The notes beneath the pieces were generated by a model that saw only the letters and a program-made list of their open reading frames with translations, was not told where the DNA came from and made no database searches. This document shows, piece after piece, positions 270-47,452 of a DNA stretch of 64,000 nucleotides (position 1 is its first letter; each line of letters begins with the position of its first letter). The position numbers and the translations under genes were made by a program. The DNA is from a virus: positions 1 to 64,000 of IMG/VR virus record IMGVR_UViG_3300042890_001842; one strand, written 5' to 3'.

Positions 270-381
270 AGTAAAGCGAATTCAGGAGTTGCGGAGATCA
301 AATGCCGCAACCCCTGTACGCAATAAGAAAAAATATTCAAGAAAAACAAAACATAAGCGGCGTGTCGATTTGACAGATTGA
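244..381 (+). CDS. small very basic protein, unknown
   Basis: 45 residues starting MFQNSLRDK, overlapping the 3' end of the previous gene by 26 bp in another frame. About one third of residues are Lys or Arg, concentrated in the C-terminal half (KKKYSRKTKHKRR), so nucleic-acid binding is plausible. A weak purine-rich stretch precedes the ATG. It could be a fortuitous frame, but its position and composition fit phage small basic genes. Confidence 0.45.
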   Translation: MFQNSLRDKVKRIQELRRSNAATPVRNKKKYSRKTKHKRRVDLTD

Positions 382-484
382 TCAGCTGCCCGCAATAGTG
401 TGGGGGCATAGAGGCTTTTAAGTCAAGCACCAAAACTCCCTGAAAATTGTGAGGTTTATCACAAAATAAATCTGCGACACGCCG
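358..484. repeat. GC-rich 10-bp inverted repeat flanking a leader region
   Basis: CGGCGTGTCG at 358-367 and its exact reverse complement CGACACGCCG at 475-484 enclose 107 bp. The enclosed segment also contains a smaller TGCCC/GGGCA hairpin and the palindrome at 448-463. In such AT-rich DNA a perfect GC-rich pair is unlikely by chance. It could form a long-range RNA stem at the end of the upstream transcript. Confidence 0.45.
448..463. promoter_or_regulatory. CRP/GlxR-type palindrome (site 1)
   Basis: TGTGA-GGTTTA-TCACA, a perfect match to the CRP-family consensus. Its centre lies about 73.5 bp upstream of the expected transcription start of the promoter at 501-522. Confidence 0.6.
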
Positions 485-500
485 AAGGTGAATTAGTAAA

Positions 501-522
501 TGTCAGTAGGCCATGCTAAAAT
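501..522 (+). promoter_or_regulatory. early promoter P1 (TGTCAG-N10-TAAAAT)
   Basis: TGTCAG at 501-506, 10-bp spacer ending ATGC, then TAAAAT at 517-522. TG one base before the -10 makes it an extended -10. No -35 hexamer is present at 17 bp. The leader CCAACAACGAAAGG leads to ATG 552. Confidence 0.7.
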
Positions 523-551
523 ACTCTTATTCCAACAACGAAAGGTATCAA

Positions 552-755
552 ATGAAAATCGAACACAACCTAAAGTTTGTAACAGAGTTTGCAGACAATC
601 ACCCAGTAACAGCACAAATGCTAAACATGCCTGAACCTATGCGTGTATTGCTATTAGAGTCAATGCTAAAAGAATTACTTGCACCACGCTTGCAACCTCT
701 ATTAGATGAAATCAATGCAGGTGGGTCATACGCAATTCTAAAGGTGGCTGAATAA
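552..755 (+). CDS. small acidic/helical phage protein, unknown
   Basis: 67 residues beginning MKIEHNLKF. This ATG was chosen over an in-frame ATG at 513 because 513 lies inside the promoter spacer and -10, and because CGAAAGG sits 6-7 bases before 552. The protein is predicted helical, with a hydrophobic middle (MRVLLLESMLKELL). The stop overlaps the next start (TAATG). Function not recognised. Confidence 0.75.
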   Translation: MKIEHNLKFVTEFADNHPVTAQMLNMPEPMRVLLLESMLKELLAPRLQPLLDEINAGGSYAILKVAE

Positions 756-1030
756 TGGGATACACAACAGCATTAGCACTTGCAGATGACCTATCATTAG
801 AGGCAGGGTTAGCCTATCACTTACAGGCTAATCATTACCCACCCGTTCCCGTTGCTATGGTGCAACCTTGCATAGATGCTATTGATGCATACTATGATGA
901 GGACTATGGTCGTGAAGTATCTTTACCTGAAGGTATCTCATGGCGTGGGCAGGTAACTGCACCAGCACATGCAATAATTGATGCACACCACTTAGATGCT
1001 TGGCTAGTAAGCGAGGACTACGATGAGTAA
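755..1030 (+). CDS. small phage protein, unknown
   Basis: 91 residues, coupled to the previous gene by a TAATG overlap. Acidic, with an N-terminal alanine/leucine-rich helix and a central DAIDAYYDEDYG segment. No recognised domain. Second gene of the P1 operon (552-1163). Confidence 0.75.
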   Translation: MGYTTALALADDLSLEAGLAYHLQANHYPPVPVAMVQPCIDAIDAYYDEDYGREVSLPEGISWRGQVTAPAHAIIDAHHLDAWLVSEDYDE

Positions 1031-1163
1031 TCTTTATTCTATCTTATCTACTTGGTATCCTGAAGGAGACTTCAACGAAGCTGAATTGTGGGATGCTATC
1101 GCTGAAAACGAAGGCGTTGATGTAAATGAGATCATGGATGGCGATCTAACAGACTACCTGTGA
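1023..1163 (+). CDS. small acidic phage protein, unknown
   Basis: 46 residues (MSNLYSILSTWYPEGDF...), overlapping the preceding gene by 8 bp. Strongly acidic, with tryptophans at 11 and about 24. The stop TGA falls inside the palindrome at 1159-1174, so the operator of the next promoter overlaps the end of this gene. Confidence 0.7.
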   Translation: MSNLYSILSTWYPEGDFNEAELWDAIAENEGVDVNEIMDGDLTDYL

Positions 1164-1174
1164 TGTATCTCACA
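1159..1174. promoter_or_regulatory. CRP/GlxR-type palindrome (site 2)
   Basis: TGTGA-TGTATC-TCACA, a perfect palindrome. Its centre is about -64.5 relative to the expected start of promoter P2. It overlaps the stop codon of the upstream gene. Confidence 0.6.
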
Positions 1175-1180
1175 CGACAC

Positions 1181-1200
1181 TCCCCTCAGAAATGAGGGGA
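1181..1200 (+). terminator. hairpin with GAAA tetraloop directly before promoter P2
   Basis: TCCCCTCA-GAAA-TGAGGGGA: an 8-bp perfect stem with a GNRA-type loop. It is followed not by a T-tract but, two bases later, by the TGTCAG box of P2. It may end or protect the upstream mRNA; intrinsic termination would be weak. Confidence 0.55.
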
Positions 1201-1202
1201 AA

Positions 1203-1224
1203 TGTCAGTGGGCTATTGTATAAT
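1203..1224 (+). promoter_or_regulatory. early promoter P2 (TGTCAG-N10-TATAAT)
   Basis: TGTCAG 1203-1208 and a consensus TATAAT 1219-1224 separated by exactly 10 bp. CA-rich leader and CGAAAGGAAA ribosome site before ATG 1255. Confidence 0.75.
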
Positions 1225-1254
1225 ACTACCAACAACAAAACGAAAGGAAACAAA

Positions 1255-1404
1255 ATGACAACACTAGAAATCGGACAGACATACACCACTTCAACAAGCG
1301 GTGTAACAGGAACAATCGTGGCGGTAGATAATCACCCAAGCGGTGTAAATCGTGTCTTGCTTGATGTCAATGGCAAAGAGCGTTGGACAAGCGTTCCAAA
1401 CTAA
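1255..1404 (+). CDS. small beta-rich phage protein, unknown
   Basis: 49 residues starting MTTLEIGQTY. The start was set at 1255 because CGAAAGGAAA lies just upstream, whereas the longer in-frame opening at 1192 runs through the promoter. The sequence looks like a small all-beta fold (TSGVTGTIVAVDNH...RVLLDVNGKERW), perhaps SH3-like. Function not recognised. Confidence 0.75.
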   Translation: MTTLEIGQTYTTSTSGVTGTIVAVDNHPSGVNRVLLDVNGKERWTSVPN

Positions 1405-1421
1405 TTCCTGATAAGGAAAAG

Positions 1422-1448
1422 TCCTGAGCATGACTACTAAAACTGCTC
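1422..1448 (+). repeat. conserved hairpin motif CCTGAGCA..AAAACTGCTC, copy 1
   Basis: GAGCA and TGCTC arms separated by a 13-base A-rich loop. The same pattern recurs at 3493-3517 and on the - strand at 27081-27104. It lies just after the stop of the 1255-1404 gene, before promoter P3. Confidence 0.5.
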
Positions 1449-1454
1449 ACAATT

Positions 1455-1476
1455 TGTCAGACCCCTATGCTATACT
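1455..1476 (+). promoter_or_regulatory. early promoter P3 (TGTCAG-N10-TATACT)
   Basis: TGTCAG 1455-1460, spacer ending ATGC, TATACT 1471-1476 (extended -10). No CRP-type palindrome is found at the usual distances. The leader is a fourfold ACCA repeat followed by CGAAAGAGGAAA. Confidence 0.75.
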
Positions 1477-1511
1477 AACCAACCAACCAACCAAACGAAA
1501 GAGGAAAATAA

Positions 1512-1937
1512 ATGGCTAGAAACGGAAAATCTATTAGCGTGAAAATCGCTACACCAAAGGTAATCAAGGCACTAGAAACACGCCTTGCTGAATTAGAAAA
1601 GAACTACGCTACACAGGGCGAGAACGAAGCAAAGTATCAGAAAGCCCGTGATAAGTGGCAAAAAGAAATTGGCAAGTGGGCTATGTCTAACTTCTCAAAG
1701 GCTGAGAACCTTCGTACAAACTATCGTAATTGGAACAAAACTCTCAATGTAGATTTTGACCTTACAGTAAATGAGAGCGACTTCCCTAAAGAACCTGAAA
1801 AGGATTTTGAGACAATTCACCAGCACACATACAATGAGCAGAAAGAGGAAATCACGAACGCAATTCGTATCCTCAAGATGACAGATGAGGAAACAGTAAA
1901 TACCTCAACCTATAACGCTATTGCTCGTTATCTGTAA
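1512..1937 (+). CDS. coiled-coil phage protein, unknown
   Basis: 141 residues, sole gene of the P3 transcript. GAAAGAGGAAA precedes the ATG. The first 25 residues are basic; residues about 18-70 are charged and helical with heptad-like spacing (LETRLAELEKNY...KARDKWQKEIGKW), followed by an acidic region. No enzyme motif. High codon quality and a strong ribosome site suggest abundant expression. Confidence 0.8.
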   Translation: MARNGKSISVKIATPKVIKALETRLAELEKNYATQGENEAKYQKARDKWQKEIGKWAMSNFSKAENLRTNYRNWNKTLNVDFDLTVNESDFPKEPEKDFETIHQHTYNEQKEEITNAIRILKMTDEETVNTSTYNAIARYL

Positions 1938-1947
1938 ATAAATAGTG

Positions 1948-1984
1948 GGAGGGCTAGACACACTCTAGCCCTCCATGCTATAAT
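1948..1984 (+). promoter_or_regulatory. 11-bp hairpin abutting an extended -10 promoter
   Basis: GGAGGGCTAGA (1948-1958) pairs perfectly with TCTAGCCCTCC (1964-1974) around a CACAC loop. Four bases later ATGC-TATAAT gives an extended -10 at 1979-1984. The position where TGTCAG would sit is occupied by the stem, so this promoter lacks that box. The leader ACTAACAAAGGAACAAA leads to ATG 2012. Confidence 0.6.
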
Positions 1985-2011
1985 TCGTATCCCTACTAAC
2001 AAAGGAACAAA

Positions 2012-2269
2012 ATGAAAAATCGTTATCGTATCGAAATCTATGATGATGTAAAAGCAAATGATTTGACTATTTATTCTGAGTCAAATGTAGATAAAGAATA
2101 CTTAACTGAAATGGTATTCTCTAACTTAAGACAATTCTCTGGAAACATTCGTGCATACGTATATGACAATGTAAAGAAAAAGAAAACCACTGCACTGATT
2201 CTACCAATGGAATTGTTAGCTAAATATAGAAATTACAAACTTACTTCTGATGAAATACTAATGAATTAA
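2012..2269 (+). CDS. small phage protein, unknown
   Basis: 85 residues. AAAGGAACAAA precedes the ATG. A predicted alternating beta-alpha-beta pattern (RYRIEIYDDV ... YLTEMVFSNL ... NIRAYVYDNV) resembles small ferredoxin-like folds. Monocistronic, with a strong terminator directly downstream. Confidence 0.75.
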   Translation: MKNRYRIEIYDDVKANDLTIYSESNVDKEYLTEMVFSNLRQFSGNIRAYVYDNVKKKKTTALILPMELLAKYRNYKLTSDEILMN

Positions 2270-2275
2270 TAATTA

Positions 2276-2310
2276 TGAGGCGGGATCCGTGCCCGCCTCA
2301 TATTATTTTG
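2276..2310 (+). terminator. intrinsic terminator
   Basis: TGAGGCGGG (2276-2284) pairs perfectly with CCCGCCTCA (2292-2300) around a 7-base loop and is followed by TATTATTTT. It closes the 2012-2269 transcript. Confidence 0.75.
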
Positions 2311-2328
2311 GCCCGCAAAGGTAAGGGG

Positions 2329-2358
2329 TTATCCACAGCTTTAAGAGAGTTATCCACA
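2329..2358 (+). promoter_or_regulatory. two perfect DnaA boxes, 21 bp apart
   Basis: TTATCCACA at 2329-2337 and at 2350-2358, same orientation, start-to-start 21 bp (two helical turns). They lie between a terminator and the CRP-type palindrome of promoter P4, so host DnaA could bind here to regulate P4 or start replication. Confidence 0.55.
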
Positions 2359-2370
2359 ATCCCCGAAATT

Positions 2371-2386
2371 TGTGAGATTGATCACA
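2371..2386. promoter_or_regulatory. CRP/GlxR-type palindrome (site 3)
   Basis: TGTGA-GATTGA-TCACA, perfect, centred about -74.5 from the expected start of promoter P4. Confidence 0.6.
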
Positions 2387-2424
2387 CGAGACAATTCGGA
2401 CAAATGACTAACAAGACTAGTAAA

Positions 2425-2446
2425 TGTCAGTCCCCTATGTTATACT
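2425..2446 (+). promoter_or_regulatory. early promoter P4 (TGTCAG-N10-TATACT)
   Basis: TGTCAG 2425-2430, spacer ending ATGT, TATACT 2441-2446 (extended -10). Leader CCAACAACCAATCGAAAGGAAA before ATG 2479, in two blocks of CA-rich sequence and ribosome site. Confidence 0.75.
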
Positions 2447-2478
2447 CAATCCAACAACCAATCGAAAGGAAATAAATT

Positions 2479-3483
2479 ATGGCTCACAATCTAGAAGTCG
2501 AAAACGGCGAAGTTGCTTTTGCGCTACGTGGAAAACCAGCATGGCACAATTTAGCAAATCGCATCTTTACACAAGATGAAGAAGTAACTACACAAACAAT
2601 GCTTGAAGAGGCAAAGTTAGCAAATTGGAATGTTCGTCTATCTCCAATCGCTGAGCACATTCCAGAATCATGGAATGATGTTTCTACTGCATCTCTTGTA
2701 TTGCGTGACAATCCATTCAATGGCGGAACTGATGTTCTTGCAACTGTTGGAAAGCGTTATAAGCCTGTGCAGAATGAAGAATTGTTTGCATTCGCTGATG
2801 CAATTCATGATGCAAACGCTGACTGTCGCTGGGAATCTGCTGGTTCTCTAAAGCAGGGCAAAGTTGTATTTGGTACTGTTGATATTCCTCGCACAATGGT
2901 GCTTGACCCTAGCGGTGCTAATGATGAAACTAAGTTGTATCTAATTGTTTGGACATCTCATGACGGGTCTGTTGCTGTTCAGGCTGCTGTTACTCCTGTT
3001 CGTGTTGTATGCCAAAACACTTTGAATCTTGCAATGCGTAATGCAAAGCAATCTTTCAAGATTCGCCACACGCAATCTGTTGAAGGTCGCATTCAAGTTG
3101 CTCGTGAGACTCTTGGTCTTGCTCTTGGATACTTTGATGAATTTGAGAAGGAAGCGCAAGCACTCTACACTCAATCAATTACTGATTCAGAATTCTCAAA
3201 GTTGATTCAAACAATCTACCCAAAGCCTGAGAAGGATTCAAAGGGTGCTTTGAAGAAGTGGGAAAACAAAGTCGTTTTGCTTGATGACCTTTACCACAAT
3301 TCACCAACGAATGCTAATATCAAGGGAACAAAGTGGGGCGCATTCAACGCTCTAACTGAACGCCTAGATTATTATCGTTCAGGACGTGGCAATTCTGAAT
3401 CACTCATGGCTGGTGCATCAGGATTTGACCCTGTTCTAACTGCTGAGAAAAACAAAATCAAGAAATTGGTTTCTGCTTTCTAA
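2479..3483 (+). CDS. DUF932 / phage-plasmid-like protein
   Basis: 334 residues, close to the usual length of the DUF932 family (phage/plasmid-like proteins of TIGR03299 type). Recognisable family features are the opening HNLEVENGEVAFALRGKPAWH, then GKRYKPVQNEELFAFAD near residues 90-107 and VVCQNTLNLAM near 180. The biochemical role is unknown; the family is found in phages and conjugative plasmids. Driven by P4, with CGAAAGGAAATAAATT upstream, and probably strongly expressed. It is the largest gene of the + strand block. Confidence 0.88.
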   Translation: MAHNLEVENGEVAFALRGKPAWHNLANRIFTQDEEVTTQTMLEEAKLANWNVRLSPIAEHIPESWNDVSTASLVLRDNPFNGGTDVLATVGKRYKPVQNEELFAFADAIHDANADCRWESAGSLKQGKVVFGTVDIPRTMVLDPSGANDETKLYLIVWTSHDGSVAVQAAVTPVRVVCQNTLNLAMRNAKQSFKIRHTQSVEGRIQVARETLGLALGYFDEFEKEAQALYTQSITDSEFSKLIQTIYPKPEKDSKGALKKWENKVVLLDDLYHNSPTNANIKGTKWGAFNALTERLDYYRSGRGNSESLMAGASGFDPVLTAEKNKIKKLVSAF

Positions 3484-3492
3484 ATAAAAAAA

Positions 3493-3517
3493 TCCTGAGC
3501 ATGATTTAAAACTGCTC
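3493..3517 (+). repeat. conserved hairpin motif CCTGAGCA..AAAACTGCTC, copy 2
   Basis: GAGCA/TGCTC stem with an 11-base loop TGATTTAAAAC, just after the DUF932 stop and five bases before tRNA-Asp. It may act in RNA processing or 3'-end protection; no T-tract follows. Confidence 0.5.
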
Positions 3518-3521
3518 TCTT

Positions 3522-3595
3522 GGTTCCATAGATTAATTGGTTAGATCGCCACCCTGTCACGGTGGAGGCTACGGGTTCAAGTCCCGTTGGAATCG
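3522..3595 (+). tRNA. tRNA-Asp (anticodon GTC)
   Basis: A 74-base cloverleaf. The acceptor GGTTCCA pairs with TGGAATC, with one G-T. The D arm is GATT/GATC, the anticodon stem CCACC/GGTGG carries loop CTGTCAC, and the T arm ACGGG/CCCGT carries TTCAAGT. The 3' CCA is not encoded. It lies between the DUF932 gene and a tiny Lys-rich frame, probably processed from the P4 transcript. Confidence 0.93.
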
Positions 3596-3596
3596 C

Positions 3597-3728
3597 ATGG
3601 ATAAAAAAAATTACGCTCTCGCTGCATATAGAAAAGTTAAACGTGCAGAAAAATTAAAAAAGATCAAAGAGCTTGAAGAATATAATAATAAATGCGGGCC
3701 AGTAACAATAACTAAAATAAAAAAATAA
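3597..3728 (+). CDS. tiny Lys-rich open frame after tRNA-Asp
   Basis: 43 residues (MDKKNYALAAYRKVKRAEK...), beginning two bases after the mature tRNA end. There is no ribosome site, because the upstream bases are the tRNA itself; translation would require tRNA processing to leave an almost leaderless mRNA. The composition is plausible for a small nucleic-acid-binding protein, but it may not be expressed. Confidence 0.35.
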   Translation: MDKKNYALAAYRKVKRAEKLKKIKELEEYNNKCGPVTITKIKK

Positions 3729-3756
3729 ATACCCGCAGAGGTAAAAGCCAAAAAAT

Positions 3757-3772
3757 TGTGTTACGAGTCACA
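3757..3772. promoter_or_regulatory. CRP/GlxR-type palindrome, one mismatch (site 4)
   Basis: TGTGT-TACGAG-TCACA: one departure from TGTGA-N6-TCACA, centred about -63.5 from the expected start of promoter P5. Confidence 0.45.
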
Positions 3773-3799
3773 AATAAAATCCCTGAAACCCCTTGAAAA

Positions 3800-3821
3800 T
3801 GTCAGTGGCATCCGCTACAAT
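3800..3821 (+). promoter_or_regulatory. early promoter P5 (TGTCAG-N10-TACAAT), leaderless
   Basis: TGTCAG 3800-3805 and TACAAT 3816-3821. The next ATG (3828) is six bases beyond the -10, which is where transcription should begin, so the mRNA would be leaderless. Confidence 0.7.
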
Positions 3822-3827
3822 ACTCAC

Positions 3828-4445
3828 ATGACCAACGAACTAATATCAAGTAAATATACATTTGTCTGCGATCCAGGTGAATGTGATTCTTTAATTGAAC
3901 TAACATCATCAGATGGTTTTGGATTTCCATCTGGTGTGACAAGGCTCACATGTCCTTGTGGAAGAGAAACCACATTATTGTCAGTGGAGCATGCTACAAT
4001 ACAACCAACAACAACGGAAGAGGTAAAAATGGAAACAACTACAGATAATCACTACATGACACGAGAGTTTCTTGAGTCAGAGTTAGTTAAAAATAAGGCA
4101 CGTATCGCACAATTAGAGGAGCAGGTCCAACGTGTAACCCAGCGTGATTACGCAACTGCAGGAACTCTAAATAAGTTACGTGATGACATGAAGGTATTTA
4201 CCTTGGAAGGTCTTGATGATGATTCTATTTCAGAATATCAGGCAGAAGAGATTGCAAGCATTTGCGGGTTCGAACTAACTAATGAGTTTGAGTTGACTGT
4301 AACAGTACAGTATTCAGTTACAGTTAATGCTCGTGACGAGGAATCTGCTATCAATGCAATTCATGAGACAGATTTCGATACTGTGTCATATGATGACCCA
4401 ATTACATATATGTCTTCATCTGTTGATTCAGTAGAGGTGGACTAA
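3828..4445 (+). CDS. zinc-ribbon protein with in-frame downstream domain (possible two-start gene)
   Basis: The full frame is 205 residues from a leaderless ATG at 3828. Residues 1-60 form a small zinc-ribbon module (C-x4-C near 12-17, then CPCGR near 44) like a stand-alone small protein of actinobacteriophages. The rest (METTTDN..., 138 residues from ATG 4029) is helical then acidic beta-rich. Promoter P6 at 3979-4000 and the ribosome site GGAAGAGG lie inside the frame just before 4029, so a shorter product is likely. The long frame may be a fusion of two ancestral genes. No catalytic motif. Confidence 0.7.
   Translation: MTNELISSKYTFVCDPGECDSLIELTSSDGFGFPSGVTRLTCPCGRETTLLSVEHATIQPTTTEEVKMETTTDNHYMTREFLESELVKNKARIAQLEEQVQRVTQRDYATAGTLNKLRDDMKVFTLEGLDDDSISEYQAEEIASICGFELTNEFELTVTVQYSVTVNARDEESAINAIHETDFDTVSYDDPITYMSSSVDSVEVD
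3935..3950. promoter_or_regulatory. CRP/GlxR-type palindrome (site 5), inside a coding frame
   Basis: TGTGA-CAAGGC-TCACA, perfect, centred about -64.5 from the expected start of promoter P6 although it lies within the zinc-ribbon coding sequence. Confidence 0.6.
3979..4000 (+). promoter_or_regulatory. early promoter P6 (TGTCAG-N10-TACAAT), internal
   Basis: TGTCAG 3979-3984, spacer ending ATGC, TACAAT 3995-4000, extended -10. The leader ACAACCAACAACAACGGAAG leads to ATG 4029. Confidence 0.72.
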
Positions 4446-4648
4446 TGTATTTTGAGTTAACCGCTCCAAACCAGTCAGCCCTTCACAGGGCTTACTGGGA
4501 TGCGGAGGTAATTGGATTGGACCCTAAGTTGATTGGTTCATTGACTTTCAATATTGGAACTGGTAGCATTGAGAAAGTAAGTCGCATTCGTGACAAGCAT
4601 AACTTAACTGAAAGCTATGTCTCAGACTATGAGCCAACAGGATATTAG
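4445..4648 (+). CDS. small conserved phage protein, unknown
   Basis: 67 residues, coupled to the previous gene by TAATG. The pattern MYFELTAP...AYWDAEVIGLDP...IGTGSIEKV..IRDK is one I associate with a recurring small actinobacteriophage protein. No function is known to me. Confidence 0.75.
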   Translation: MYFELTAPNQSALHRAYWDAEVIGLDPKLIGSLTFNIGTGSIEKVSRIRDKHNLTESYVSDYEPTGY

Positions 4649-4657
4649 GAGGATAAA

Positions 4658-4813
4658 ATGGATTATCAAGATGGATTTGAAGACGGTGTAAAATTTGCTC
4701 GTGATGTTATTATTAATAACATTAGACTATGGGCAGAGACTTCAGATGATGGTCCCGCCTTCGATGAAATTGCAGACCGTATTGAATTTGGAAAGGTAGA
4801 CTATGACCTCTGA
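4658..4813 (+). CDS. small acidic phage protein, unknown
   Basis: 51 residues (MDYQDGFEDGVKFARD...). A very good ribosome site, AGGAGGATAAA, precedes the ATG. The YQDGFEDGVKFA opening is helical and common among small phage proteins. It overlaps the following gene by 11 bp. Confidence 0.72.
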   Translation: MDYQDGFEDGVKFARDVIINNIRLWAETSDDGPAFDEIADRIEFGKVDYDL

Positions 4814-5012
4814 AGATCTAACTAGATGGATTGGCTGTGATCAATGCGGTACAGCCCAAGCTTTATATTTAGTTAAACTAGTAGAAGGTGAGTTATTCTT
4901 TTGTGGCCACCACTACAACGCAAGCAAACGGGGCCTTGACAAGGTCGCATATGAAATAGTAGAATTGAACAAGAAAGAAGAAGTACCACAACTAACAGAA
5001 ATGGCGGAATAA
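4803..5012 (+). CDS. small zinc-binding protein, DUF7455-like
   Basis: 69 residues with C12-x2-C15 (CDQCG) and FFCGHHYN near 33-40, a C-x2-C...C-x-H-H arrangement like the actinobacterial DUF7455 family. Probably a zinc-stabilised small fold; the role is unknown. It lies in the P5/P6 operon between an overlapping 51-residue gene and the conserved 5015 gene. Confidence 0.75.
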   Translation: MTSEDLTRWIGCDQCGTAQALYLVKLVEGELFFCGHHYNASKRGLDKVAYEIVELNKKEEVPQLTEMAE

Positions 5013-5014
5013 CA

Positions 5015-5419
5015 ATGGGAGATAGAGCAAACTTCGTATTCGTACAACCAAGCGGAGAAACAATTGTATTGTACTCACACTGGGGTGGACATCAAATGCT
5101 AGCAAATTTAGCAGAGGCAGTAGCCAAGGCACAACCACGCTGGTCTGACCCTTCATATGCAACACGCATTGCTATCAGTCAAATGATTGGTGATGGCTGG
5201 GCATTTGAAACAGGCTGGGGTTTAAATGTTAACTCAATTGGAGACAACGAGCACAAGATTCCAGTAATCGACTGGGGGCAGATGACGTTTAGTCTACACG
5301 AGGAAGACTCATTCCATAATCTTGATAACAAGGTTCGTGGCATGAAGAATGAAGCAATCTTTACTCAGGACCTGCGTTCGTTTGTAGAGAAATACTCTGA
5401 CGTTCCAATCCTAGTTTAA
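5015..5419 (+). CDS. conserved actinobacteriophage protein, unknown
   Basis: 134 residues starting MGDRANFVFVQ. The string of motifs (YSHWGGHQML..., RWSDPSYATRIAISQMIGD, GWGLNV, PVIDW) is one I recognise from many actinobacteriophages without an assigned function. It is aromatic-rich and probably cytoplasmic. Last gene of the operon starting at 3828; a long 3' region with terminator 5526-5557 follows. Confidence 0.8.
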   Translation: MGDRANFVFVQPSGETIVLYSHWGGHQMLANLAEAVAKAQPRWSDPSYATRIAISQMIGDGWAFETGWGLNVNSIGDNEHKIPVIDWGQMTFSLHEEDSFHNLDNKVRGMKNEAIFTQDLRSFVEKYSDVPILV

Positions 5420-5525
5420 TTAATTAAAGGTGCCTCTATAGTCATCCAATGCGTTATGGCCAGGGGTTAAATAAAGCAGAGTTCTTTTACTTTCGTTGGT
5501 GATTCTCTAGCAGCCTTATGTAAAG

Positions 5526-5557
5526 CCCCAGCTCTGCCCCTGCAGCTGGGGTTTTTA
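5526..5557 (+). terminator. intrinsic terminator
   Basis: CCCCAGCT (5526-5533) pairs with AGCTGGGG (5544-5551), followed by TTTTTAT. Strongest terminator of the + block; it ends the 3828-5419 operon. Confidence 0.82.
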
Positions 5558-5626
5558 TATTGGCCCGCAAGAACTGAGGATAGCATAGACTATTTACGAG
5601 AGTCAATATATTTTCCTGAAATTTTG

Positions 5627-5642
5627 TGTGATCTTGACCACA
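5627..5642. promoter_or_regulatory. CRP/GlxR-type palindrome, one mismatch (site 6)
   Basis: TGTGA-TCTTGA-CCACA, centred about -82.5 from the expected start of promoter P7. Confidence 0.45.
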
Positions 5643-5688: not shown

Positions 5689-5710
5689 TGTCAGTGGGTC
5701 ATGTTACAAT
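5689..5710 (+). promoter_or_regulatory. early promoter P7 (TGTCAG-N10-TACAAT)
   Basis: TGTCAG 5689-5694, spacer ending ATGT, TACAAT 5705-5710 (extended -10). Leader ATCAACGAAAGGATATCAA before ATG 5738. Confidence 0.75.
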
Positions 5711-5737: not shown

Positions 5738-6478
5738 ATGCCGAACTGGGTATATAATGGTTTGACTATCGAAGGCAAGCCTGAATCTGTAAAATCTCTT
5801 ATGGAGCAAATGAATAAGCCATTTGTTAAATTGCATGATACTTGGAATTCAACAACTCATCAAATGGAAGTAAAGCAAACTACTTATCCTAATCCTGTAT
5901 TTGCTTTTCATAATATCTATAATCATTTAGATGCTGGTATTACTGATGAGGAATACTTAAAACAACCTGACCATTCCCTCCCACTTGCAGAGGCTATGAA
6001 ATTTCAGGGCAACCATTGGTATGACTTCAATGTCCGTGAATGGGGCACAAAATGGGATGTTGGTGTTCATTCAGATGATAAGTATCCTGATACTACTGTA
6101 GAGGATGCTGTTAATGGTGAGAATCATGTAGTCCATTATAATTTTAATACCGCTTGGTCTCGTCCTATGCCAGCCTTAATTAAACTATCATCTCAATACC
6201 CTGACCTTCTATTTACTTTATCATATGAGGAAGAGACAGGCTGGGGCGGAGAGTTAGAAATTCTTCGTGGCGTAGTTATCTCAGAATCAGAATATGACAA
6301 TATGTGTCGTGACTGTGATGCAACTGACCAAATGGAATACTGCGAGAACGAATGCGGTGAAATCTGTGGCAACTGTAATTGGCTAGGAGAGGCTGACCTA
6401 GAGGCTGTCAAAGAATGTCAGACCCATAGTATATACTTAGAAACCAAAGTACCTGAATATAGAAAGGCGGAAGCATGA
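5738..6478 (+). CDS. DUF1281 / Api92-like ferredoxin-fold protein with Cys-rich tail
   Basis: 246 residues. MPNWVYNGLTIEG and the later WGTKWDV..., WSRPMPALIKLSSQYPDL and ETGWGGE segments match the DUF1281/YubB (Api92-like) family of phage and plasmid proteins. Residues about 190-215 add a cysteine cluster (C-x2-C...C-x3-C...C-x2-C) likely to bind zinc. Function unknown. Driven by P7 and coupled by ATGA to the next gene; promoter P9 lies inside its 3' end. Confidence 0.85.
   Translation: MPNWVYNGLTIEGKPESVKSLMEQMNKPFVKLHDTWNSTTHQMEVKQTTYPNPVFAFHNIYNHLDAGITDEEYLKQPDHSLPLAEAMKFQGNHWYDFNVREWGTKWDVGVHSDDKYPDTTVEDAVNGENHVVHYNFNTAWSRPMPALIKLSSQYPDLLFTLSYEEETGWGGELEILRGVVISESEYDNMCRDCDATDQMEYCENECGEICGNCNWLGEADLEAVKECQTHSIYLETKVPEYRKAEA
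6416..6437 (+). promoter_or_regulatory. early promoter P9 (TGTCAG-N10-TATACT), internal
   Basis: TGTCAG 6416-6421 and TATACT 6432-6437 inside the DUF1281 gene. The sequence TGTCAGACCC is shared with P3. It would boost the genes from 6475 on. Confidence 0.6.
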
Positions 6479-6812: not shown

Positions 6813-7008
6813 TTATCTAATTGAATATATGAAGATTCATTTAATTTCAATTGAGCAGGATTTAGAAAATATTGCTCAGGAAATGGAAGAATTAGACCCT
6901 GAATCTAAAGCTTGTAAAGAATTAGATTATGAGTATAACTACTTATCAGGACAGTCTATTGTAACCCGCCATTATTTGTCAGTGGCTAATGATAGAATGT
7001 CATCATGA
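6796..7008 (+). CDS. small helical phage protein, unknown
   Basis: 70 residues from ATG 6796 (a TTG at 6793 is an alternative). Overlaps the preceding gene by 17 bp. Acidic and helical (SIEQDLENIAQEMEELDPES), coiled-coil-like. Promoter P10 lies in its 3' end and the stop overlaps the next start (ATGA). Confidence 0.68.
   Translation: MDIKTDYLIEYMKIHLISIEQDLENIAQEMEELDPESKACKELDYEYNYLSGQSIVTRHYLSVANDRMSS
6977..6998 (+). promoter_or_regulatory. early promoter P10 (TGTCAG-N10-TAGAAT), internal, leaderless
   Basis: TGTCAG 6977-6982, spacer ending TGA, TAGAAT 6993-6998, then six bases to ATG 7005. Transcription from it would be leaderless for the 7005 gene. Confidence 0.6.
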
Positions 7009-8227: not shown

Positions 8228-8252
8228 GAGGGCTGGCTAAATGTCAGCCCTT
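8228..8252 (+). terminator. hairpin overlapping promoter P8
   Basis: GAGGGCTG (8228-8235) pairs with CAGCCCTT (8245-8252, one G-T). The right arm contains the CAG of the TGTCAG box, so hairpin and promoter share bases. No T-tract follows. Confidence 0.5.
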
Positions 8253-8263
8253 CGTGATATAAT
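8242..8263 (+). promoter_or_regulatory. early promoter P8 (TGTCAG-N10-TATAAT)
   Basis: TGTCAG 8242-8247, spacer ending GTGA, TATAAT 8258-8263 (extended -10). Short leader with CGAAAGGCGG before ATG 8287. No CRP-type palindrome upstream. Confidence 0.72.
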
Positions 8264-8824: not shown

Positions 8825-8869
8825 TTATCCACAAGTTTATCCACAACATTATGACATGCCTGTGGATAA
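8825..8869. promoter_or_regulatory. cluster of three perfect DnaA boxes
   Basis: TTATCCACA at 8825-8833 and 8837-8845 on the + strand, and its reverse complement TGTGGATAA at 8861-8869. AT-rich sequence follows at once, as at bacterial oriC unwinding elements. Confidence 0.7.
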
Positions 8870-8937
8870 CGCTCAATTACTCAGTATATATCTAAATAAA
8901 TATACAGTAGTAATTACTCTAGAATTAATAGTAAATA

Positions 8938-19321: not shown

Positions 19322-19622
19322 TAGGCTTTCCCTCCAGTTCGCATCTTACTCCGTAGGACTCAATAATCTTCTTTACCATTTCGACATACTCTATAACCTT
19401 CATTTTTGCTGTTCCGTCGTATTGTCTAAAATTATCTTCATACAGTCTAATTGCTATAAATTCTGGATACTGAACAATATTCATCTTGAAATCGTTTACT
19501 GGCTTCTTAAGCTCTCTAATCTTGTTAGCCATCTCTTTATTATAAAATACTGGCTTGTTGGGTTCACCAGTCCATTGATTTATTCCATACTTAAAATGGT
19601 CTTTGTTTTTATCAATAAACAC
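19305..19622 (-). CDS. conserved phage protein, unknown
   Basis: 105 residues; residues about 48-98 (YPEFIAIRLYEDNFRQYDGTAKM...EYVEMVKKIIESYGVRCELEG) look like an alpha-beta domain. Overlaps the WhiB gene by 11 bp, so the two are probably co-regulated. Confidence 0.7.
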   Translation of the reverse strand: MFIDKNKDHFKYGINQWTGEPNKPVFYNKEMANKIRELKKPVNDFKMNIVQYPEFIAIRLYEDNFRQYDGTAKMKVIEYVEMVKKIIESYGVRCELEGKPSDRIS

Positions 19623-19923
19623 CTTTACCCCTTAATCTTTTCCAAACTTCCGTCTCTTTATGTAAATTCTTTGTCTTGTCTATGGAACCAGAAGTTAGAT
19701 AAACTCCACCCCAAACACCATATTCAGAATTATTTACACCAGACTCATAACATATTTTAATGACTGGGCAAGATAGACATGCCTCGTCAATGCTTTTTGA
19801 TATAGTTGAATCTGTTTCATATTTATCATAAAATAAATTAGTATTCATTCCACGACATACGGCCAGATTAAACCAATCAAAATCATCTTTATCTATACCA
19901 AGATCATTTAAAATATTTGACAT
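19612..19923 (-). CDS. WhiB-family Fe-S regulator
   Basis: 103 residues from ATG 19923 (ATG 19950 is possible). C23, C49-x2-C52-x5-C58 are the four 4Fe-4S ligands, followed by the diagnostic GVWGG turn and a basic tail (KRLRGKG) for DNA contact. WhiB proteins bind sigma-A region 4 and redirect transcription; phage WhiBs are known from mycobacteriophages (TM4 WhiB represses host whiB2 and blocks superinfection). Restricted to Actinobacteria and their phages, it is the best host marker here. Confidence 0.9.
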   Translation of the reverse strand: MSNILNDLGIDKDDFDWFNLAVCRGMNTNLFYDKYETDSTISKSIDEACLSCPVIKICYESGVNNSEYGVWGGVYLTSGSIDKTKNLHKETEVWKRLRGKGVY

Positions 19924-20164
19924 ATTTTTTAGGAAGCTCCCATACTCCAATACTGTTTACAGATATTTTTTCTGACATTCCCCAAGAATTGTTTTTAAAT
20001 AAACCTTTAATGCTTGTGTATCCTGATGGATCTTTTTTCCATATAATTAGATCATAGTTCTCCCAGTACGGAGATATGTCTTTTGCTCTCTTGATAAAGA
20101 GATTTACACCTAATTCGTTAAGCTTTAGCATGCCATCCTTAATGACTAAACCGCAGCATCCCAC
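19904..20164 (-). CDS. small phage protein, unknown
   Basis: 86 residues from a GTG start eight bases after a TATAAT box, so probably leaderless. CC near the N-terminus and an aromatic middle (PYWENYDLIIWKKDPSG). Overlaps the WhiB start. Confidence 0.65.
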   Translation of the reverse strand: MGCCGLVIKDGMLKLNELGVNLFIKRAKDISPYWENYDLIIWKKDPSGYTSIKGLFKNNSWGMSEKISVNSIGVWELPKKYVKYFK

Positions 20165-46655: not shown

Positions 46656-47452
46656 ACTTGAAAAAACTTTCCATCCACGACGCATGAGTAGTCTGAAGAC
46701 ACATGAATCATTTGAATATGTGGGTAATCATTTACAATATGGGCAATAGCAAATCCCTTTTGCCAGTCATGGTGCTGAGTATACTTCATTCCTGGACCCT
46801 TCTCATCGCACATGTGACCAATCTCATATCCACGAAGAGTTTCACCTTCACCACCGTTCCTAAGCTCATATGTAACCATGTGTGAAGCAATTCTATGTGA
46901 GTGTCCTCTAATTAAAGATACCTGCAAGTCTTCCATGTCTTTGCGTACAGAGCCTGTTGCTGAAATTGAAATTCCATGATGTACGTGAACATCTCCAAAT
47001 CTTTGCTTAGGCAGTGAATCGTAGTATATGTATTCATATCCCAATGAGTCTAGGCTCCATAATGATTCTGGAGTAACCTCTTTTAAATAATCTGGAAGCT
47101 TGGCGTCCATGTAATTAAATATTCTAACATCATGATTTCCTAGCGCTGAAAACAATTGTGCATCTGGAAGCATGTCACGAGTCTTTGTATAAAATTCTCT
47201 TGCTCCTTTAGCCTCGTGTCTCATCATAGGAACAATTAAATCTTTGCTGTCTGTCTTGTGTAAATTTAGAAACTCTGCAGACCGACCCTCTGTATACTTG
47301 CTGTAGCAAGCTTGGTCGTCGGTATCGCCAAGATAGTCTACTACATCTGGCTTAAACCATTTCATTACTTTAAACCAAAGCTCAATCATTTTATCGTCTT
47401 GATACGGGAACTGCTGATCAGATGACAGCATCCATTTTAAATCGTTGCTCAT
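46652..47452 (-). CDS. calcineurin-like metallophosphoesterase
   Basis: 266 residues with the full motif set: SSDQQFPYQD, LGDTDD, GNHD (~102), HHG (~156) and GHSHR (~183). It could be a nuclease (Mre11/SbcD-like superfamily) or nucleotide phosphatase. First gene of the replication operon, directly after a promoter-terminator pair. Confidence 0.85.
   Translation of the reverse strand: MSNDLKWMLSSDQQFPYQDDKMIELWFKVMKWFKPDVVDYLGDTDDQACYSKYTEGRSAEFLNLHKTDSKDLIVPMMRHEAKGAREFYTKTRDMLPDAQLFSALGNHDVRIFNYMDAKLPDYLKEVTPESLWSLDSLGYEYIYYDSLPKQRFGDVHVHHGISISATGSVRKDMEDLQVSLIRGHSHRIASHMVTYELRNGGEGETLRGYEIGHMCDEKGPGMKYTQHHDWQKGFAIAHIVNDYPHIQMIHVSSDYSCVVDGKFFQV

Follow-up and report, generated by a model that had tools for sequence, protein, structure and literature searches.

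Helically phased CRP/GlxR-type palindromes upstream of phage early promoters: probable operators of a host regulator

Introduction

Class I CRP promoters of E. coli, of which the lac promoter is the type, carry CRP at -61.5, -71.5 or -82.5. Here we describe a comparable arrangement in viral DNA, in which palindromes of the CRP/GlxR type, TGTGA-N6-TCACA, stand upstream of the predicted early promoters of the phage in IMG/VR record IMGVR_UViG_3300042890_001842; the record is 112,011 bp long and its bases 1-64000 are the stretch that was analysed, hereafter the window. The phage promoters share with those of E. coli the operator, a dimer bound upstream (which in the phage is proposed), a series of whole-turn spacings and a weak -35 element. 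They differ in that the phage lattice lies about 3 bp further from the -10 element (-64.5/-74.5/-84.5 vs -61.5/-71.5/-82.5) and in that an invariant TGTCAG occupies -28 to -23.

Palindromes of the same kind are used by the cyclic AMP (cAMP)-type regulators of Actinobacteria. GlxR of Corynebacterium acts as an activator, of ldhA (PMC7999487), and sites for the CRP of M. tuberculosis (Rv3676) cluster upstream of start sites, between -60 and -40 (PMC4117774), although in both cases the targets are host genes whereas here they are genes of a phage. For phage genes the nearest precedent is found in cyanophages, where pstS of P-SSM2 and genes of S-PM2d are under the control of host PhoB (PMC10976474). 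The likeness is that genes of lytic phages bear operators for a nutrient regulator of the host; the difference is that the cyanophage case concerns phosphate, cyanobacteria and few genes, whereas the present one concerns a CRP-type input, an actinophage clade and much of the early region, with the operators at fixed helical positions. A first-pass annotation of the window had held that no such link was described. This stands for CRP-type regulators, in that we found no report of CRP control of phage early genes or of GlxR in phages in the open-access literature, but not more generally given the PhoB precedent: phage genes wired to a host nutrient regulator are already known, and a CRP-type input on actinophage early genes would be a new variant. 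Predicted PhoB boxes were not always bound in the cyanophage study (PMC10976474), a caution which applies to the palindromes of this phage too.

Results

Six palindromes in the window had been put forward, four perfect and two with one mismatch, and each was found where claimed and with the match quality claimed:

448-463, plus strand: palindrome TGTGAGGTTTATCACA, CRP/GlxR-type, perfect, centre -73.5, 53 bp ahead of the 501 promoter
1159-1174, plus strand: palindrome TGTGATGTATCTCACA, perfect, centre -64.5, with orthologues at 34, 44 or 54 bp
2371-2386, plus strand: palindrome TGTGAGATTGATCACA, perfect, centre -74.5, the site of the DUF932 gene
3757-3772, plus strand: palindrome TGTGTTACGAGTCACA, one mismatch, centre -63.5
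3935-3950, plus strand: palindrome TGTGACAAGGCTCACA, perfect, centre -64.5, within the frame 3756-4445
5627-5642, plus strand: palindrome TGTGATCTTGACCACA, one mismatch, centre -82.5

The sole further window site with at most one mismatch is at 46813. Because chance alone gives 2.9 +/- 1.8 sites when the window is searched at that tolerance, our statistics rest on perfect sites. The two ends of the record share an identical 3,269 bases, which leaves 108,742 non-redundant bases (108.7 kb), and in these we observed 8 perfect sites against a simulated mean of 0.15 and a maximum of 1 in 60 runs, in keeping with the earlier estimate that a perfect site would be expected well under once by chance. 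Those outside the window are at 105233, 105827, 106662 and 108013, and three sites recur as copies in the identical end. The whole record holds 8 distinct perfect and 6 one-mismatch sites, 13 of these 14 falling in 105.2-108.7 kb and 0-5.7 kb, which are contiguous across the record ends; the exception is 46813. All 8 perfect sites lie within this early region of 8.9 kb. Frequent, unphased palindromes elsewhere in the genome were the pattern expected to speak against the first-pass annotation, and in the whole record no perfect palindrome lies outside the early region.

Each of the six window sites is followed by a promoter of the form TGTCAG-N10-TANNNT, recognised by its fixed-spacing motif:

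501-522, plus strand: early promoter TGTCAG-N10-TAAAAT (fixed-spacing motif and logo), downstream of 448
1203-1224, plus strand: early promoter TGTCAG-N10-TATAAT, downstream of 1159
2425-2446, plus strand: early promoter TGTCAG-N10-TATACT, downstream of 2371
3800-3821, plus strand: early promoter TGTCAG-N10-TACAAT with a near-consensus -35 (TTGAAA), downstream of 3757
3979-4000, plus strand: early promoter TGTCAG-N10-TACAAT, internal to the frame 3756-4445, downstream of 3935
5689-5710, plus strand: early promoter TGTCAG-N10-TACAAT, downstream of 5627

The early region contains 16 promoters of this class, all on the plus strand, with none at a spacing of 8, 9 or 11; those beyond the window occupy record positions 105283-108414. 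When the start (+1) is placed 7 nt beyond the -10 hexamer, which agrees with a pyrimidine-A preference there, the claimed centres of -73.5, -64.5, -74.5, -64.5, -63.5 and -82.5 were reproduced exactly. In the logo the invariant TGTCAG is preceded by an A/T triplet and followed by CC/GG, and the -35 is weak. Judged by this layout, these are not plain sigma-70 promoters: TGTCAG sits too near the -10 for a sigma -35 element and is taken to predate the CRP sites. In relatives it forms part of TTGACA-AA-TGTCAG, an inverted repeat over the -35. Since neither a sigma factor nor a CRP-type regulator is among the record's Pfam matches, the early promoters must use host machinery. A phage-encoded CRP was sought in the record and in 13 relatives and none was found.

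Relatives were collected with the following gene as query:

2479-3483, plus strand: DUF932 gene (Pfam DUF932, E 4.8e-56)

Searching IMG/VR in this way gave 308 close relatives, of which 80 were kept (L001-L080, 1.32 Mb). These contain 475 perfect copies of TGTGA-N6-TCACA, compared with 0-3 for each of ten controls, five being different palindromes and five different lengths of the spacer (0-2 for spacers of 4, 5, 7 and 8), and so display the exact 6-bp spacer of a CRP/GlxR operator. A chance origin of the sites is ruled out by these control palindromes (475 vs 0-3) and by the simulation (8 vs 0.15). An early promoter follows 16-110 bp downstream on the plus strand at 435 of the 475 sites, with no minus-strand promoter served by any, and when all pentamer palindromes with gaps of 0-19 were scanned without bias upstream of the promoters, TGTGA-N6-TCACA ranked first in the near clade and in the middle one. 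The perfect sites of 12 long relatives (106-120 kb) all fall in one early cluster, and the reversed control pattern is absent from these relatives. The site of the DUF932 gene is kept at 53/54 bp in 81 of 81 loci, its half-sites being 99.5% conserved against 71-77% in the flanks and 71-81% for their surroundings, a figure that is slightly favourable because the segments were preselected for having the site at 54 bp and no more than one mismatch in it.

The spacing of sites and promoters is strongly periodic. Within this genome, 12 site-promoter pairs give R = 0.74 at a 10.3-bp period (p ~0.001). Across the 80 relatives, the distance between site start and TGTCAG shows sharp peaks at 34, 44, 54, 64 and 75 bp, corresponding to centres of -54.5, -64.5, -74.5, -84.5 and -95.5, with a period of 10.1-10.4 bp and R of 0.55-0.71. 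The result holds after strict de-replication: with 88 segment clusters (70% identity) Rayleigh z is 36.5, and with 53 clusters (60%) it is 15.8. Once units are sorted by the gene they precede, those of orthologous genes prove to be whole turns apart, at 34/44/54 bp for the gene behind 1203 and at 54/64 or 44/54 bp in other groups, which amounts to insertions or deletions of whole turns, so that the near-10-bp stepping first noticed in six sites is borne out on a much larger set. The 3935 palindrome is at 44 bp in all 20 units grouped with its gene, and many orthologues of the 5627 site have a second, proximal site at 34 bp (34+61 pairs). Whole-turn steps upstream of the -35 region, as at class I CRP-dependent promoters, are thus a property of these loci. 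A deeper sample of 63 further contigs extends the trait: at 59-76% DUF932 identity the sites are kept, and mostly the phase too. A separate relative, L108 (72%), has its sites at 64, 43, 64, 43 and 74 bp and, seven bases ahead of TGTCAG, a clear -35 of sequence TTGATA.

The record has a G+C content of 37%. Its polymerase, portal, WhiB and DUF932 genes have homologues in Streptomyces phages of the Stanwilliamsviridae (EGole, Samisti12 and Muntaha), with amino-acid identities of 57% for the polymerase III alpha subunit, 56-58% for the portal, 50% for WhiB and 52% for DUF932, and by these homologous core genes the record is a relative of that family. The left end of Streptomyces phage EGole differs from that of the record, its 16 kb containing neither a palindrome with up to one mismatch nor a TGTCAG-N10 promoter. 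In EGole the DUF932 homologue is duplicated, lying in a direct terminal repeat of ~11 kb, and one deep relative of the record has two DUF932 copies near its ends; on these grounds the region studied here is probably a terminally repeated, first-entering early region. Bearing on the host is one gene in particular:

19612-19950, minus strand: WhiB-family regulator (PF02467, E 2.6e-11 at 19702-19875; 50% identity to Streptomyces phage WhiB)

WhiB is a customary marker of freshwater actinophages (PMC6802176, PMC10202952) and, together with the Streptomyces-phage-like core genes, it points to a host that is probably actinobacterial. Binned contigs gave a single genome match bearing on the host: L108, a 110-kb phage contig of the clade, sits in a 5.4-Mb metagenome-assembled genome labelled uncultured cyanobacterium; given that the phage carries WhiB and actinophage core genes this is probably a binning error, and it was not used as host evidence.

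Discussion

The sites, their density, strand, phase and conservation, and the absence of a phage-encoded candidate can be read directly from the DNA. Wiring to a host activator of the CRP/FNR superfamily is the simplest reading of them, and we consider it probable that the palindromes are operators from which a dimer of this kind activates the early promoters from upstream, in class I style. The actinobacterial host would encode the dimer, most likely a GlxR/CRP orthologue, which would bind at the whole-turn centres from -54.5 to -95.5 and, in the manner of class I CRP activation, touch host RNA polymerase, presumably its alpha subunit, on a single face of the DNA. Transcription of the early genes would rise as a result, the -35 element of their promoters being weak. 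Should the host protein be cAMP-responsive like GlxR and CRP, the early programme would be tied to the metabolic state of the host. Operators of a host-regulator type at phage promoters, with the regulator itself not phage-encoded, are also what defines the cyanophage PhoB case. The first-pass proposal that the early genes are wired to a host activator is therefore favoured by the phased, conserved CRP-type operators and the lack of a phage cyclic nucleotide-binding protein, and qualified by promoters that are not plain sigma-70 and by a shifted register.

Several observations weigh against activation by a host CRP-type dimer. Among the relatives, 40 of the 475 perfect sites have no early promoter within 110 bp, and in the record the perfect palindrome at 106662-106677 likewise has none within that distance, the next one, which has a one-mismatch site of its own, being 144 bp downstream. 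At 49/50 bp there is, in at least two gene families, a minority class out of phase by half a turn, sometimes accompanied by a second, in-phase site at 75 or 65. The absolute register of E. coli class I sites is missed by about -2.9 bp, which is why we call the promoters class-I-like and not members of class I; the claimed closeness to the E. coli positions accordingly survives as a whole-turn series on a displaced lattice. This offset may reflect the actinobacterial polymerase or a protein on TGTCAG. The early timing of the genes is judged from position and homology, and their starts are predicted. Finally, further contigs at 45-56% identity have no perfect palindrome, save one exception in 18 loci, and mostly keep their TGTCAG-N10 promoters. 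Conservation in relatives that keep the promoters, which had been suggested as a check, is thus complete within the clade (81/81 loci) and lost at this depth. Because these deeper relatives keep the promoter without the sites, the palindromes are not essential to the promoter type, and the CRP input is best described, from this distribution, as a trait that one large clade has added to an older type of promoter.

Among other explanations, a host member of the CRP/FNR superfamily might read the palindromes without sensing cAMP or nutrition, whether as a constitutive paralogue or in response to another ligand, and would then boost the early genes without wiring them to carbon status. Superfamily members with different effectors can have similar recognition motifs, but the exact TGTGA-N6-TCACA belongs to the cAMP-binding CRP/GlxR branch and other branches favour other half-sites, so we regard this as unlikely. 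For NtcA these are GTA-N8-TAC (PMC3898017). The palindromes could instead be bound by a protein that the phage encodes and either packs in its virion or makes early, and that activates the early genes or shuts them off; the restriction of sites to the early region would suit a phage-specific circuit, and many small early proteins have no known domain. Set against this, no cyclic nucleotide (cNMP)-binding domain was found in the record or in 13 relatives, the motif is identical to the consensus of a host regulator, and the sites are placed in phase upstream of the promoter and not on top of it, all of which makes a phage protein quite improbable.

Host CRP could also repress or insulate the early genes, or compete with a silencer such as Lsr2, without contacting RNA polymerase. 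CRP is able to repress, an Lsr2-like gene lies in the repeat of a Streptomyces relative, and the out-of-phase 49/50-bp class would be accommodated. The sites almost never overlap the promoter, however, and whole-turn phasing over hundreds of units and between orthologues is the mark of a face-specific contact with RNA polymerase, leaving repression or insulation improbable. That the palindrome is no operator at all, but an RNA or DNA hairpin, part of a terminator or a replication repeat, is suggested by its being an inverted repeat with DnaA boxes and terminator-like GC-rich repeats nearby, and yet is barely credible. The half-site sequence itself is invariant (99.5% identity, with no compensatory changes) rather than merely its pairing, 0-2 matches are obtained with spacers of 4, 5, 7 and 8, a stable hairpin needs stronger arms than these of 5 bp, and the phasing with promoters would go unexplained.

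Freshwater Actinobacteria are among the commonest lake bacteria and, to our knowledge, the determinants of infection outcome in them are mostly not known. For a large group of lake viruses that probably infects Actinobacteria, our reading suggests that the nutritional state of the host helps to set the strength of the start of infection, and a phased CRP input on early genes predicts that infection speed would depend on host cAMP or carbon supply. The hundreds of promoters with whole-turn spacing changes offer a natural series for studying how actinobacterial CRP contacts RNA polymerase, and phased CRP sites could possibly serve as a marker of host physiology that is readable from metagenomes.

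Neighbouring elements and other observations

The early promoters are also accompanied by DnaA boxes, the pair in the window being:

2329-2358, plus strand: pair of perfect DnaA boxes TTATCCACA, with starts separated by 21 bp, upstream of the palindrome at 2371

Perfect boxes (TTATCCACA/TGTGGATAA) number 394 in the 1.32 Mb of relatives, against 4 for two permuted controls, and 43 of 50 pairs upstream of early promoters have starts exactly 21 bp apart, or two helical turns. Further boxes occur at record position 107948 and, as a group of three that may mark an origin, at 8825-8870 of the window. In deeper relatives without CRP sites (L255-L272), TTAAGAA, TTTACGA and ATAACA repeats lie ~30-50 bp upstream of TGTCAG and might be operators through which a different host regulator acts at the same position. 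Tentatively, a host cAMP-CRP/GlxR switch on much of the early region, together with the DnaA boxes and the unusual TGTCAG-N10 element, might let carbon and replication status gate the lytic start in a widespread clade of freshwater actinophages, deeper relatives using the TTAAGAA/ATAACA operator set instead.

The remaining early features of the window are:

513-755, plus strand: early open reading frame, listed as 80 aa, with its probable start codon at 552, no Pfam match
1455-1476, plus strand: early promoter of the same TGTCAG-N10 type (fixed-spacing motif), without palindrome
6416-6437, plus strand: early-type promoter (fixed-spacing motif), without palindrome
6977-6998, plus strand: early-type promoter (fixed-spacing motif), without palindrome
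8242-8263, plus strand: early-type promoter (fixed-spacing motif), without palindrome

An internal start codon in frame (METTT...) is present in the frame 3756-4445, which also holds the 3979 promoter and the palindrome at 3935. Since site, promoter and start codon lie inside it, this frame may yield two proteins, one long and one short, through two promoters linked to CRP. Repeats of CGGCGTGTCG / CGACACGCCG flank many early cassettes (window 359-368 and 474-483; record 105850, 106695 and 107900); they are enriched in all clades, often with a GCCCGCA...GTGGGGG hairpin just ahead.

Elsewhere in the virome, a canonical TTGACA-N17-TATAAT promoter with a CRP site was found in 33 contigs, where most single matches could be chance. 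One podovirus-like family among them looks real (L123, L124, L125, L132, L133, L138, L140, L141, L145 and L149): TGTGA-N6-TCACA precedes TTGACA-N17-TATAAT at -70.5 or -80.5, so that relatives differ by one turn, in a register near that of E. coli. This family, with weak similarity to Roseobacter SIO1-type and Limnohabitans phages, is on its motif arrangement an independent case of CRP-type input on a phage promoter.

Several nutrient-related genes occur in the phage. Window 9-32 kb and record 64-104 kb include a PstS-like phosphate-binding protein, Hsp20, thioredoxin and a match to a nicotinamide mononucleotide (NMN) transporter, as well as a class II ribonucleotide reductase, MazG and RecA.

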